Part shown: positions 7,584-29,262 of the stretch, in pieces | Position numbering within the stretch: position 1 is the stretch's first letter | Layout of the letters: every line of letters starts with the position of its first letter | Source: Gallionella sp. | GTDB taxonomy: Bacteria; Pseudomonadota; Gammaproteobacteria; Burkholderiales; Gallionellaceae | DNA length: 64,000 bases | Assembly (NCBI GenBank): GCA_030682375.1 | Contig: JAUXOL010000004.1 | Span: forward strand, 168,618 to 232,617 | Direction of reading: 5' to 3' | Notes under the pieces: model-generated | Seen by the model: the letters and a program-made list of their open reading frames with translations, nothing else | The model's database searches: none | Told to the model about the DNA's origin: nothing | Program-made: the position numbers and the translations under genes

Positions 7584-9377
7584 TTATTTATCCTCGACTC
7601 GCAGGATCGCCAAAAAGGCCTCCTGCGGAATTTCCACGTTGCCCACCTGCTTCATGCGCTTCTTGCCGGCCTTCTGCTTCTCCAGCAGCTTCTTCTTGCG
7701 CGAAATGTCGCCGCCGTAGCACTTGGCCAGCACGTTCTTGCGCATCGCCTTGACGTTCTCGCGCGCGATGATATTGGAGCCTATGGTCGCCTGGATCGCC
7801 ACATCGTACATCTGGCGCGGGATCAGCTCGCGCATCTTGGCCGCAACCTCGCGCCCGCGATACTGGCTGTTGGCGCGGTGCACGATCACCGCCAGCGCAT
7901 CGACCTTGTCGCCGTTGATCAGCATATCCACCTTGACCACGTCGGCCGGGCGATACTCCTTGAACTCGTAGTCCATCGAGGCATAGCCGCGCGAAACCGA
8001 CTTCAGCCTATCGAAGAAATCCAGCACGATCTCGCCCATCGGCATCTCGTACACCAGCTTCACCTGCTTGCCGTGATAGTTCATGTCGATCTGTACGCCG
8101 CGCTTTTGCGTACACAGCGTGATCACCGAGCCGACGTATTCCTGCGGCATGTACAGATTCACCGTGACGATGGGCTCGCGTATCTCCTCGATCTTCGACG
8201 GATCGGGCAGCTTGGACGGGTTATCCACCATCAGCACCGTGCCGTCGCGCAGCACTACCTCGTAGACCACGGTAGGCGCAGTGGTGATGAGATCCATGTC
8301 GAACTCGCGCTCCAGCCGTTCCTGCACGATCTCCATGTGCAGCAGACCGAGGAAGCCGCAGCGGAAACCGAAACCCAGCGCCTGCGACACTTCTGGCTCG
8401 TACATCAGCGCCGCGTCGTTGAGCTTCAGCTTCTCCAGCGAGTCGCGCAGCGCCTCGTACTGGTTGGACTCGACCGGGAACAGGCCGGCGAACACTTGCG
8501 GCTGCACTTCCTTGAAACCGGGCAGCGCCGCGGCGGCAGGCTTGACCTGATGGGTGATGGTGTCGCCGACCTTGGCATCCTTCAGCTCCTTGATACCGGC
8601 GATCACGAATCCTACCTGCCCGGCAGACAGCGAGTCGCGATCCTGAGCCTTGGGCGTGAACACGCCGATATGCTCGGTCAGATGCTGCGCGCCGGTGGCC
8701 ATGAACAGGATCTTTTCCTTGGGCTTGAGCGTGCCGTTGACGATGCGCACCAGCATCACCACGCCGACGTAATTGTCAAACCACGAATCGATGATCAGCG
8801 CCTGCAACGGCGCTGTGGTATCGCCCTTGGGCGGCGGCACCTTGACGATCAGCGATTCCAGCACATCTTCCACGCCGAGTCCGGTCTTGGCGGAGCAATG
8901 CACTGCATCCTGCGCGTCGATGCCGATCACATCCTCGATCTCGGAGATGGCGTTGTCGGGATCGGCAGACGGCAAATCGATCTTGTTCAGCACCGGCACA
9001 ACTTCCACACCGAGATCTAGCGCGGTGTAACAGTTGGCCACGGTCTGCGCCTCGACGCCCTGAGAAGCATCCACGACCAGCAGCGCACCCTCGCAGGCGG
9101 ACAGCGAACGCGACACCTCGTAGGAAAAGTCGACGTGGCCGGGAGTGTCGATCAGGTTCAGGTTATAGACCTGACCGTCGCGCGCCTTGTAGCTCAGCGC
9201 CGCAGTCTGCGCCTTGATGGTGATGCCGCGCTCGCGCTCGATGTCCATCGAGTCGAGCACCTGCGCTTCCATTTCGCGGTCGGACAAGCCGCCGCACAGG
9301 TGAATGATACGATCGGCCAGCGTGGACTTGCCGTGGTCGATGTGGGCGATGATGGAAAAATTGCGGATATGTTGCAT
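7584..9377 (-). CDS. lepA: Elongation factor 4 (ribosome back-translocase)
   Basis: Translational GTPase that acts on stalled or mistranslocated ribosomes. The 597-residue product has G1 AHIDHGKST, the [13 protein letters not shown] switch I region, G3 DTPGHVDF, G4 NKIDLP, and the LepA-specific C-terminal domain containing [20 protein letters not shown]. It starts [20 protein letters not shown]. It lies downstream of mucD but is separated from it by a 365-bp repeat-containing gap, so it may have its own promoter. Confidence 0.99.
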
Positions 9378-9465: not shown

Positions 9466-9592
9466 ACCTCGAAGAACCGTAGCGAGCGGCTTGAGTGCAA
9501 GCCTGTCCTGAGCCAAGTCGAAGGAGCGCACGGAGCTTTGCATGGCCATTCGACTAAGCTGGCAGACAACACCAGCCAAGTCGCTGGTCAGC
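9466..9592 (+). repeat. Dispersed intergenic repeat, copy A (with inserted 24-nt unit)
   Basis: Reads ...ACCGTAGCGAGCGGCTTGAG... through GCACGGAGCTTTGCATGGCC, CGACTAAGCTGGCAG and ending AAGTCGCTGGTCAGC. A second copy lies inverted at 22843-22935 and a 27-nt fragment at 36814-36840. Relative to copy B it has an additional 24 nt at 9502-9525. The end can fold (GCTGG...CCAGC). It fills part of the 365-bp mucD-lepA gap 9378-9742; the rest holds a GGCGGC-AAA-GCCGCC hairpin near 9661-9675 but no gene. Confidence 0.85.
9502..9525 (+). repeat. 24-nt unit inserted in repeat copy A
   Basis: Begins CCTGTCCTGAGCC and ends GTCGAAGGA. It is absent from the homologous place in copy B (22843-22935), where GTGCAAG is followed directly by GCGCACGG. 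The same unit with few differences is found in frame inside tilS at 27778-27801. Confidence 0.8.
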
Positions 9593-9742: not shown

Positions 9743-11137
9743 TTACTTCTCGTCGAGGCGGATCGCCACATACGTGGCGGCATCTTCGCGCCGCACCAGC
9801 AGCGCGACATTGCGCCCCTTGGGTACCTGCTTGAGGATATCGTTGAACTGCGCCAGCGAACGGATCGGCATGTTGCCTATCGCCAGCAGCACATCACCAT
9901 GCTGCAATCCGGCAGCGCGTGCCGCCGAGCTCTTGACTTCCTCGACCAGCAAGCCGCCGCCGACCTGCAACTCCTGCGCCTGCTCGCGGGTCAGCTCGCT
10001 GACCGCGATGCCCAGTCGGGCGATCATCTCGGCCACATCGTCTTCCAGCTTCTTCACCGCCTTCGCCAGCTTGCCCTCCTCGGGCATCTCGGCGATCACC
10101 ACAGCCACCTGCTTCACCTCGCCCTTGCGCCACAGTTCCACGGCGGCTTTGCTGCCCGGCTTGGTTGCGGCGACGATGCGCGGCAGGTCGGCGGAACTGA
10201 TAACCGCCTTGCCGCCGAACTTGAGGATCACGTCGCTGGCCTCGATCCCTGCCTTGTCGGCCGGCCCGTTCTTCTCGACCGAGCTGATCAGCGCACCCTC
10301 GGGCTTGCTCAGACCAAACGACTCGGCCAGCTCGCGGGTCAGCTCCTGTATCGTCACACCGATTCGGCCGCGCGTGACCTTGCCGGTGCTGCGCAGCTGG
10401 TCGGACACCTGGATCGCCACGTCGATGGGGATCGCGAACGACAGGCCCATCGAGCCGCCGGAGCGGGTATATATCTGCGAGTTGATGCCGACCACTTCGC
10501 CGTTCATGTTGAACAGCGGCCCGCCCGAATTCCCGGGGTTGATCGCCACATCGGTCTGAATGAAGGGCACGAAGTTGTCCTGCGGCAGCGAGCGCCCCTT
10601 GGCGCTGACGATGCCGGCCGTCACGCTGCTGTCGAAGCCGAACGGCGAACCGATCGCGATCACCCATTCGCCGACCTTGAGTTTGTCGGGCTCGCCCAGT
10701 CTGACCTTGGGCAGGCCGGTCGCCTCGATCTTCAGCAGCGCGACATCGGTGCGCTTGTCCGAACCGATGACCCTGGCCTTGAACTCGCGCTTGTCGGTCA
10801 GGCGCACGGTGATCTTGTCGGCGCGATCGACTACATGCGCATTGGTCAGCAGATAACCGTCCTCGCTGATCAGGAAGCCGGAACCCAGCGACTGGGACTC
10901 CTGCTCGCGCGGCATTTGCGGTGCGAAGCGGCGGAAGAACTCGAAGAACGGATCGCCCTCCGGGATACCGGGTATCCCCTGTGCCTGGCGGACGATCTGG
11001 GTGGTGCTGATATTGACCACCGCCGCTCCCTGCTTCTCGACCAGCTCGGTGAAATCGGGCAGTTCTCGGGCCTGCGAAGACACCGGCAAGACCAGGCTCA
11101 GCGACAATAAAACGAGACCAGAAAATTTTCTCAGCAT
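9743..11137 (-). CDS. mucD: Periplasmic serine protease DegP/MucD with two PDZ domains
   Basis: Periplasmic protease-chaperone that degrades misfolded envelope proteins. The 464-residue precursor has a signal peptide (MLRKFSGLVLLSLSLVLPVS, cleaved near SSQA), the catalytic triad His in TNAHVVDRAD, Asp in RTDVALLKIE and Ser in NPGNSGGPLF, and two PDZ domains (GRIGVTIQELTREL and LGIAVSELTREQAQEL). The ATG at 11137 has the strong site GAGGAGG; the ATG-like start at 11164 lacks one. It ends the rpoE-rseA-rseB-rseC cluster, so it is likely part of the sigma-E regulon. MucD is preferred to DegP because of the cluster context. Confidence 0.96.
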   Translation of the reverse strand: MLRKFSGLVLLSLSLVLPVSSQARELPDFTELVEKQGAAVVNISTTQIVRQAQGIPGIPEGDPFFEFFRRFAPQMPREQESQSLGSGFLISEDGYLLTNAHVVDRADKITVRLTDKREFKARVIGSDKRTDVALLKIEATGLPKVRLGEPDKLKVGEWVIAIGSPFGFDSSVTAGIVSAKGRSLPQDNFVPFIQTDVAINPGNSGGPLFNMNGEVVGINSQIYTRSGGSMGLSFAIPIDVAIQVSDQLRSTGKVTRGRIGVTIQELTRELAESFGLSKPEGALISSVEKNGPADKAGIEASDVILKFGGKAVISSADLPRIVAATKPGSKAAVELWRKGEVKQVAVVIAEMPEEGKLAKAVKKLEDDVAEMIARLGIAVSELTREQAQELQVGGGLLVEEVKSSAARAAGLQHGDVLLAIGNMPIRSLAQFNDILKQVPKGRNVALLVRREDAATYVAIRLDEK

Positions 11138-11176
11138 GCCATCCTCCTCATAGTGAAAAAACAATACGAATCTTCC

Positions 11177-26883: not shown

Positions 26884-28242
26884 CTATTCCCCTGCTGTCG
26901 CCACCAATTCGACCGCGATAGCGGCCTCGCCCTCCCCGGCTTGATACTCCGCCGCCACAGCGACACCCACCACGCACACCAAGTCGTCGCCGCAATAAAC
27001 CAGCGGCAAACGCTCGCGCCGCCAAGGCGGCACGCCATTTTCCTGCAGCAGGTTCTTCAGGCTGCGCTTTGCGGCGTTCGGATGCGGGCGTAGAGTCTCG
27101 CCGCCGTTGCGCAAGCGTAGCGTGACCGGCGCGCGGCGCAACTTCTCCGCGCCGATCCCCGCTCCCATCGTCTCGCCAAAACTCAGACGAACGCCGAGTG
27201 TCGGCCAGTCCAGCTCAGCCTCGCCGTTCCACGGCAACGCCAGCCCGCGCTCGAACTCACCCAGTGCGGGGGACACATAGGCATGTCCCTGATAGCGATG
27301 CACCTGCCAGTCGCCGTATTCGATGCTCACAACGGCATCCTGCCGCGCGTCGCACAGTTGCCGCAGCATGTCATCGAGTTGCGCGGCCTGCGGCATCGCC
27401 GCACCTTGGCGATGCAAAAAATAGCGCAGCAGGTTCTTTGCGCGCGGCGGCGTCAGCGCGCGCAACGTGGCGACGTTCAGCGCATCCTCGCGCATCGCTC
27501 CCTCGGCATCGATTCGCGCCAGATCGTCGAGCATCTCGCTCGCCTCGGCGAAATGCCGGGCGCTGCGCGCCAGCGTGACGCGACATGCAGGGAAGCGATC
27601 CTCCAGCAGAGGCAATGCACGGTGGCGCAGGAAATTGCGCGGATAACTGTCGTCGGCGTTGCTCTCGTCCTCGACCCAGCGCAACTCGTGTTCGCGCGCG
27701 TATTCGAGCAAGGTTGCACGGGGTATGTCGAGCAAGGGACGGATGGTCGCCGGATGCGTACCGCCAGGCAGCACAGGCCCTTCGACCTTGCTCAGGACAG
27801 GCATCGCCGCGACGCCGCGCACGCCCGAACCGCGCAGCAGCTGCAACATGAGCGTCTCGGCCTGGTCGTCGGCGTGATGCGCCAGTGCGACGAAGTCGCA
27901 GGACTGACGCGCAAATGCGGCATGGCGCAGCTTGCGCGCGGCGGCCTCGATGCCGTGCTCGCGCAGCGGTGCGATGTCCACATGTTCGATATTCAGAGGG
28001 ATATCCAGCTTGGCGCAGAGCCCGGCGCAGAAGTCCGCCCAGGCATCGGCGTTCGAGCTGATGCCGTGGTGGACGTGCGATGCAGAAAGACGCCACGAGA
28101 ACCGCGGCGCAAGACGGTGCAGCAGATGCAGCAGTACGACGGAATCCATCCCGCCGCTGAGCCCGGCCAGGATGGCGCTGCGCGGTGGGATCATCGGCTC
28201 AAGTTGTGCAGCAATCCGGCCGGCAAGATCGCGGCGGGTCAA
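26884..28242 (-). CDS. tilS: tRNA(Ile)-lysidine synthase
   Basis: ATP-dependent enzyme that modifies C34 of tRNA-Ile(CAU) to lysidine, essential for decoding AUA. The 452-residue product has the PP-loop ILAGLSGGMDSVVLLHLL, the HHADDQAETLMLQLLRGSGVRG motif split here as ALAHHADDQAETLML and LLRGSGVRG, and the two C-terminal domains. An in-frame 24-nt repeat at 27778-27801 encodes the extra residues PVLSKVEG just after GVRGVAAM, in a loop beside the conserved domain, so the gene stays open. Confidence 0.95.
   Translation of the reverse strand: MTRRDLAGRIAAQLEPMIPPRSAILAGLSGGMDSVVLLHLLHRLAPRFSWRLSASHVHHGISSNADAWADFCAGLCAKLDIPLNIEHVDIAPLREHGIEAAARKLRHAAFARQSCDFVALAHHADDQAETLMLQLLRGSGVRGVAAMPVLSKVEGPVLPGGTHPATIRPLLDIPRATLLEYAREHELRWVEDESNADDSYPRNFLRHRALPLLEDRFPACRVTLARSARHFAEASEMLDDLARIDAEGAMREDALNVATLRALTPPRAKNLLRYFLHRQGAAMPQAAQLDDMLRQLCDARQDAVVSIEYGDWQVHRYQGHAYVSPALGEFERGLALPWNGEAELDWPTLGVRLSFGETMGAGIGAEKLRRAPVTLRLRNGGETLRPHPNAAKRSLKNLLQENGVPPWRRERLPLVYCGDDLVCVVGVAVAAEYQAGEGEAAIAVELVATAGE
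27778..27801 (-). repeat. 24-nt dispersed unit in frame within tilS
   Basis: On the coding strand this unit begins CCTGTCCTGAGCAAGG and ends TCGAAGGG, and the bases after it repeat CCTGT, so removing it restores AAM-PVLPGG without a frame change. It is the same unit as at 9502-9525. It adds eight residues to TilS. Confidence 0.75.
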
Positions 28243-28274: not shown

Positions 28275-28300
28275 AGGGGCACGGCGCGCCGTGCCCCTAC
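28275..28300 (-). repeat. GTAG-headed REP element at the accA stop
   Basis: Reads GTAGGGGCACGGCG then CGCCGTGCCCCT on the minus strand: the 24 bases 28275-28298 are a perfect palindrome. The TAG of the GTAG head is the stop codon of accA. It can also act as the accA transcript-end hairpin. Related elements lie at 47887, 49245 and 52137. Confidence 0.75.
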
Positions 28301-29262
28301 AGTGCAAGTTCCTTGAACTTGCCATAACTCATCACTTTATTGAATCGATCCTGCAACAGGTTGGCGACCGGCTTGTTCTGCGCTTGCTTGAGCGCCTCCT
28401 GCAAGGCCTTCTTCACCGTCTGCATGGTTGCGGCGTAGTCGCGATGCGCGCCGCCCAGCGGCTCGGCAACGATCTTGTCCACCAGCCCCAGCGTCTTCAG
28501 GCGAGTCGCGGTGATGCCCAGCGTCTCGGCGGCATCCGCGGCCTTCTCCGCGCTCTTCCACAGGATGGAGGCGCAACCTTCAGGCGAAATCACCGAGTAG
28601 GTCGCGTATTGCAGCATCAGCATCGCATCGCCGACCGCGATCGCCAGCGCGCCGCCGGAACCGCCCTCGCCGATCACGGTGCAGATGATGGGCACGCGCA
28701 GCTCGGCCATCTCGTACAGGTTGCGGCCGATCGCCTCGGACTGGCCGCGCTCTTCCGCGCCGACGCCGGGATAAGCGCCAGGCGTGTCGATGAAAGTCAT
28801 GATGGGGATGCCGAACTTCTCGGCCAGCTTCATCAGGCGCAACGCCTTGCGGTAGCCCTCTGGACGGGGCATGCCGAAGTTGCGCAGGATCTTCTCCTTG
28901 GTGTCGCGCCCTTTCTGGTGGCCGATCACCATCACGCTCTGGCCGTTGAAGCGCGCCAAGCCGCCGACGATGGCCTTGTCGTCCGCATAGGCGCGGTCGC
29001 CGTGCAGTTCTTCGAAATCGGTGAACAGGTGCTCGACATAGTCCAGCGTATAGGGTCGCTGCGGATGGCGCGACACCTGCGATATCTGCCAGGGCGTGAG
29101 CTTTGCATAGACATCCTTGGTCAATGCCTCGCTCTTCTTCGACAGCCGGTTGATCTCGTCGGCTATGTCCAGCGCGGAGTCGTCCTGCACATAGCGCAGC
29201 TGCTCGATCTTGTCTTCCAGCTCGGCGATGGAGCTTTCGAAATCCAGAAATGACACTTTCAT
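28297..29262 (-). CDS. accA: Acetyl-CoA carboxylase carboxyltransferase subunit alpha
   Basis: Alpha half of the carboxyltransferase that forms malonyl-CoA for fatty-acid synthesis. The 321-residue product begins [22 protein letters not shown] and has the conserved [25 protein letters not shown] split here as [13 protein letters not shown] and [30 protein letters not shown] (in part: [15 protein letters not shown]), and [15 protein letters not shown]. Its stop codon lies within a REP element. Confidence 0.98.

Follow-up and report, generated by a model that had tools for sequence, protein, structure and literature searches.

How did eight additional residues come to lie within the TilS protein of a Gallionella sp., and what kind of DNA encodes them? 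The window, by which we mean the whole stretch of 64,000 nucleotides that was analysed (contig JAUXOL010000004.1, positions 168,618 to 232,617), belongs to a genome of 2.78 Mb whose TilS groups with those of the Gallionellaceae. A first-pass annotation had proposed that a 24-nt unit, seen elsewhere as the same unit, is inserted in frame within tilS and is followed by a repeat of its own first bases. We confirm the in-frame unit and the adjacent repeat at the positions given below, and the copies elsewhere are real but not identical: a second one in the window, lying between two genes that we take from their translations to be lepA and a DegP-like gene, matches the tilS unit at 21 of 24 positions. 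The relevant features are as follows.

26884-28242, minus strand: tilS, encoding tRNA(Ile)-lysidine synthase; a full-length ORF of 452 aa in which the Pfam domains ATP_bind_3, TilS and TilS_C are all matched
27760-27819, minus strand: low-confidence TilS loop that holds the unit, residues 142-161, pLDDT <50 in an AlphaFold2 model
27778-27801, minus strand: 24-nt unit CCTGTCCTGAGCAAGGTCGAAGGG, a CCTG tag plus a 20-nt imperfect palindrome; in frame, encoding PVLSKVEG (TilS residues 148-155)
27773-27777, minus strand: CCTGT, a repeat of the unit's first five bases, directly after the unit on the coding strand
7584-9377, minus strand: lepA (presumed), neighbour of the second unit copy
9502-9525, plus strand: second unit copy, CCTGTCCTGAGCCAAGTCGAAGGA, intergenic
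9743-11164, minus strand: DegP-like gene (presumed), neighbour of the second unit copy

The eight residues fall in the sole internal segment of TilS predicted with a pLDDT below 50 (AlphaFold2 with 40 sequences, mean pLDDT 80.9), and comparison with a solved structure shows the E. coli protein to be shorter by exactly eight residues at this site. Rfam gave no match at the tilS unit. Elsewhere in the window, between tilS and the adjacent gene that we take to be accA, a weak Rfam match to RsmY (28275-28413, minus strand; 22.9 bits against a gathering score of 57) is probably due to chance.

The unit is abundant far beyond chance. Its core can be written CCTGAGC-N2-3-GTCGAAGG, and the Gallionella genome holds 13 exact cores, four with the three-nucleotide spacer (CCTGAGCNNNGTCGAAGG) and nine with the two-nucleotide spacer (CCTGAGCNNGTCGAAGG); the reversed-pattern control gave none for either form. 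Across a same-genus set of 76 genomes there are 1219 matches to the N2-3 core as against one for the reversed pattern, with the core found in 61 of the 76 and copy numbers ranging from 0 to 84 per genome. Further afield, in a sample of Pseudomonadota, the core occurs in 60 of 397 genomes and 42 of 232 genera (seven reversed matches), the highest copy number being 119 units in one genome. A pattern scan also recovered the 24-nt unit in 34 stretches of IMG/VR viral contigs (L320-L353), where the copies may be phage-borne or may reflect host contamination. In genomes outside the class, units were also seen as close inverted pairs that resemble REP doublets (L213, L234 and L235).

Many of these copies lie in genes other than tilS. 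Among the 13 exact genomic copies, six fall within Pfam-supported ORFs or at their ends (tilS, an HSP70 chaperone, the 3' end of glyQ, a fructosamine-kinase family gene, an RTX-repeat protein and an SH3-domain protein), while the unit-spanning ORFs of four others (L305, L309, L311 and L313) have no Pfam match; one further copy, a single mismatch away from the core, lies in a Wzy_C_2 protein. From 30 copies in the genus, one per genome, eight unit-spanning ORFs were run against Pfam and all eight gave domain matches: DNA polymerase I, cysteinyl-tRNA synthetase (cysS), oligopeptidase A twice, arginyl-tRNA-protein transferase, HsdM and two repeat proteins. The first-pass annotation had suggested a search for peptides encoded by the unit in all frames, and the reading frame does indeed vary from gene to gene, with several frames in use; five of the six frames of the 24-nt unit are free of stop codons. 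For HSP70 and oligopeptidase A, comparison with the nearest solved structures revealed no clean eight-residue gap.

Occupied and empty versions of the same site can be compared directly. As had been predicted, some close relatives lack the eight residues: TilS proteins P0010, P0012, P0013 and P0014, at 81-84% identity, are without them, and the eight residues are present once or twice in P0002-P0007, P0011 and P0016. The unit-less loops of the relatives at this level of identity start PVLSGG, PLSGG or PVRSGG, and since PVLSGG is the form in P0010 and P0013, the CCTGT that follows the tilS unit may be native target sequence, as judged at the protein level. At the DNA level we examined three clean pairs, one in tilS and two in polA. 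The tilS genes of G010 and G003, sisters on the TilS tree (support 100/100), differ by exactly 24 nt in flanks that are identical at 258 of 276 bases; exact 24-nt indels likewise separate the polA genes of G082 and G084 and of G078 and G004. The polA indels sit in the linker between the 3'-5' exonuclease and polymerase domains, where unit-bearing proteins exceed the E. coli Klenow fragment, which has no such residues, by exactly eight. The 24-nt unit is therefore precisely present or absent in orthologous genes, as well as being dispersed. All three empty sites have CC at the junction, read on the strand where the unit starts CCTG, which leaves the boundaries of the insert free to shift by at least two bases; these pairs show no target duplication longer than CC. 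From the 71 genomes that gave a polA match, 30 loci were fetched: their linker segment is 31-33 aa long in 27, 41 aa in two and 50 aa in one, the last because the unit lies there inside a GTAG-type repeat. In the polA gene of G074 (L383) the unit is enclosed by a GTAGGAGCGG..CCGCGA-type REP in the exonuclease-polymerase linker. A second polA linker, between two exonuclease domains, is highly variable across the 30 loci (L354-L383) and contains many stretches that resemble translated palindromic repeats, for example PSPLQGEG and SDLAGVVGQPSQMASSSIR.

The tilS site itself is more than an occupied or an empty position. We parsed the loop in 119 of 120 listed TilS proteins (from 5840 matches; one was dropped) and counted leading units: 63 loops have none, 43 have one, 11 have two and two have three. 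In the tilS gene of G012 three 24-nt units stand in tandem. Among the listed proteins, what remains of the loop after removal of the units is 11-14 aa long in 41/63, 27/43, 7/11 and 1/2 of these classes, respectively, and many of the loops outside this range hold other repeats, as judged by eye. TilS loop length thus rises in eight-residue steps, which suggests slippage after entry. Within the Gallionellaceae clade, 46 distinct TilS proteins (53 parsed minus seven duplicates) comprise 11 that bear the unit, nine with other short repeats and 26 with neither, these labels having been set by eye before the tree was built. On a TilS tree of these 46 tips with the loop removed, the unit needs nine changes to account for its 11 bearers and the presence of any repeat needs 15; a single clade of unit-bearers is rejected (p-AU 3.5e-48). 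The tree is compatible with gain, loss and allele transfer. The eight residues are not a conserved part of TilS in distant lineages: the unit is present in none of the 52 loops that could be parsed from more distant TilS genes (65 loci, 13 unparsed).

The first-pass view of a unit inserted in frame holds. The site as a whole records more than one event: the TilS loop is a hotspot that several repeat families have entered recurrently, and in it the 24-nt unit forms tandem arrays. The tilS loops of L060 and L069 hold GTAGGTCGGG- and GTAGGAGCGG-type palindromes, those of L035, L036 and L068 hold CCCTCTCCC..GGGAGAGGG or close forms, that of L145 has its units as an inverted pair and that of L064 combines the unit with a ATTCCCGC..GCGGGAAT-like repeat. 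In the fetched DNA, CCCTCTCCC..GGGAGAGGG occurs 16 times and ATTCCCGC..GCGGGAAT four times, neither being found reversed; the counts are weak for short GTAG strings (22 against six and 31 against 16 reversed) and stand at one against zero for an element in L043 and L062. A comparison of L061 (G020) with L035 (G017) shows approximately 60 extra nucleotides inside a CCCTCTCCC..GAGAGGG palindrome that is intact in L035, that is, a repeat nested within a repeat.

The anatomy of the unit resembles that of a REP, with a conserved 5' flank and an imperfect hairpin, the support for this coming from the form with a 2-nt loop. Taking 84 exact copies together, the pair immediately outside the core (-1/+1) is Watson-Crick in 57 as against 30 expected, a value reached in none of 500 shuffles, although the 84 include a few orthologous pairs and the shuffle test ignores relatedness; the 57 pairs are T-A in 25 cases, C-G in 24 and G-C in eight. 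Pairs farther out show no clear excess over shuffles in the same 84 copies. The signal belongs to the 2-nt-loop form (42/54 against 21 expected, 0/500 shuffles), while covariation is absent from the 3-nt-loop form, to which the tilS unit of the window belongs (15/30 against 13.5 expected, 121/500 shuffles). A conserved tag is found on the 5' side of the unit and none on the 3' side, the 5' flanks of the 84 exact copies reading CCGTTCG, GCCTG, GCTCA and similar. Among 27 inexact 2-nt-loop copies the outer pair takes most of the changes (9 and 19), with only 0-2 changes per position in the TGAG/CGAA core; TGAG opposite CGAA would give two G.A mismatches. Inexact copies of the 3-nt-loop form have changes throughout the core, 25 of these loci having been chosen by inexact match (reversed control five). 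The folding energy of the tilS unit is no better than that of shuffled sequences (z of 0.37 as DNA and -0.46 as RNA), which leaves a stable hairpin unsupported.

We think it probable, on balance, that the eight TilS residues are encoded by one copy of a dispersed REP-like repeat, which likely entered a loop of predicted disorder as a single 24-nt insertion. A trans-acting enzyme would copy the repeat to new places in single-stranded form. The mobility of the unit, its mechanism and its effect on the protein are what we infer. After entry, expansion and contraction in 24-nt steps, likely by slippage, would have given the range from zero to three units. Three circumstances likely allow the unit to persist in genes: its length is divisible by three, only one of its six frames contains a stop and the target loops tolerate additional residues. 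For TilS the consequence is likely neutral, and the added loop length is probably harmless. A more ambitious version of this reading is that the unit represents a mobile element of 22-24 nt, about the smallest DNA movable as a unit, which would need no Y1 transposase, insert precisely at CC, be recognised through a hairpin whose tandem G.A mismatches are conserved and have spread over classes of the Pseudomonadota, with loops growing by eight residues and the TilS of Gallionellaceae as a living record; this we put forward as a tentative possibility.

One candidate for such an enzyme is a RAYT (Y1 transposase, PF01797) encoded in the same genome, with the unit as its classical REP. The design of the unit resembles that of the E. 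coli REP as described in PMC8266576, and the source genome has three Y1 matches. Two of the three Y1 genes (L030, G000:C5; L032, G000:C15, outside the window) are flanked by GTAG palindromes in the classical REPtron layout, and the GTAG repeats around them are similar in kind to the other repeats of TilS loops; the unit itself has no GTAG tag. Over the 76 genus genomes, unit copy number is weakly correlated with Y1 count (Spearman 0.31, p 0.006), but presence and absence are not associated (Fisher p 0.76): Y1 is missing from six genomes with at least 10 units, and the unit from 11 that have Y1. Beyond the genus, PF01797 at E<=1e-3 went undetected in 13 of 22 unit-bearing genomes (a subset of the 26 with eight or more units), and these include the genome with 119 units, which has no candidate. 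We fetched 96 Y1 loci, 72 from the genus (one gene twice, out of 167 genus matches) and 24 from nine other genomes. Exact units are slightly in excess in the 72 genus loci (5 against 2.04 expected, four of the five in one genome) and are absent from the 24 non-genus loci; the nearest lies 503 nt from a genus Y1 match, and no fetched genus locus has exact units on both sides. With up to two mismatches allowed, 11 units appear in the 96 loci (reversed control zero), the closest measured being 153 nt (L273, G016) and 246 nt (L271, G026) from the Y1 match. In both of those loci, though, it is GTAG REPs that flank the Y1 gene on both sides as inverted repeats, and the unit is a single extra copy beside or within them; no Y1 gene among the 96 loci has units as paired flanks. 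In none of these loci does the unit have the look of a cognate REP for the Y1 gene, and we consider movement by a same-genome RAYT unlikely.

Other accounts concern the history of tilS itself. Homologous recombination could have carried tilS alleles between lineages after one or a few insertions and so produced the scattered distribution. The 11 unit-bearing genes agree in position after the AM codons, in orientation and in frame, and tails such as NVCAGSIV are common to L064, L143 and L145; an agreement of this kind could reflect either allele transfer or one old insertion with many losses. Against transfer, the interiors of the units differ among lineages, and the unit also occupies unrelated genes (polA, an HSP70, cysS and oligopeptidase A), polA having two 24-nt insertions of its own, so that we regard transfer as the source of the pattern as rather doubtful. 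The tandem arrays of up to three units, and the CCTGT direct repeats on both sides of the unit, would also fit a local minisatellite born in tilS by tandem duplication and altered by slippage alone. As an origin this is refuted by dispersal, since the genome holds the exact core in 12 further places and the genus in hundreds, and we give it very little credence; slippage remains the likely source of copy-number change in tilS. Least probable of all, to the point of being scarcely credible, is a functional TilS motif under selection: although 11 of 46 clade proteins have it, close relatives and 52 of 52 parsed distant loops do not, and the site is predicted to be disordered. The dispersed REP-like repeat is our preferred reading.

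On that reading, the series of zero, one, two and three units at a single gene site would be a natural record of apparently mobile DNA turned into protein, and one that lies outside Rickettsia. The presence of several unrelated short repeat families in one loop, one of them nested, indicates that tolerant loops may serve as landing sites. It also raises the question of how repeats of approximately 24 nt spread in genomes without a Y1 transposase.

A literature search, which covered few subscription papers and figures, did not find the unit's DNA strings or its encoded peptides; among the matches listed, no title dealt with repeats of this kind, whether in tilS or in Gallionellaceae. The first-pass annotation had called this a rare view of a short element entering protein-coding DNA. 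Entry of a dispersed element into the TilS loop, with empty sites in relatives, is supported by our data; there are precedents in Rickettsia RPEs and intragenic REPs (PMC2229807; PMC3733652). The RPEs are described there as short palindromic repeats inserted in frame in many conserved proteins, and according to a review they are Rickettsia-specific and 105-146 bp in size. Our unit is like them in its in-frame insertion in conserved proteins with orthologues that lack it (the tilS and polA pairs), and differs in its size of about 24 nt, its 24-nt tandem ladders and its range across the Pseudomonadota. The MITEs Correia/NEMIS and ERIC, which are non-autonomous, are reported to form in-frame fusions with genes (PMC2229807), and with MITEs given as 70-300 bp with terminal inverted repeats (PMC3733652), the unit is far smaller. 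Tandem minisatellites share with tilS the head-to-tail copies at one locus, up to three here, and dispersal excludes them as the whole account.

The closest parallels are with REPs. Intragenic GTAG and CGTC REPs are on record, among them copies in genes for DNA polymerase I and for tRNA pseudouridine synthase; in two Xanthomonas species recB holds one at nearly the same point (PMC3733652). E. coli REPs are reported to require conserved stem mismatches and the 5' tag GTAG (PMC8266576). Like the GTAG REPs and REPINs that go with RAYTs (TnpA_REP), the unit has a conserved 5' flank, what looks in the 2-nt-loop form like an imperfect palindrome with conserved mismatches, and close inverted pairs (the L213, L234 and L235 doublets); unlike them, it is tagged CCTG, CCGTTCG or similar, and many of its carriers have no Y1. 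The likeness is one of design and not membership. The CGTC-tagged REPs (families 1-4, Di Nocera 2013, including dRS3, RPE-4 and RPE-6) are, in the account of PMC3733652, mostly alphaproteobacterial, without a dedicated transposase and in part intragenic, with a terminal CGTC, TGTC or CCTC motif, stems of 8-9 bp that nearly always start A-T, a loop of 4-5 and a tail CCA. In the tilS unit and other CCTG-tagged copies the letters ahead of CTGAGC are TGTC, which has been reported as a variant of CGTC, although many copies have other letters there; the 13 of 22 carriers without Y1, the one transposase type sought, may provide a second likeness; the tilS unit differs in its internal mismatches and in having no A-T start, and some alphaproteobacterial copies (ATCCT..AGGAT) come nearer to the CGTC REP stem. 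The unit may be a member of a family drawn in the consensus figures of PMC3733652. It is best filed with the protein-coding REP-like repeats, among which it is unusual for its 24-nt in-frame steps, its multi-family hotspot and its want of an evident transposase.
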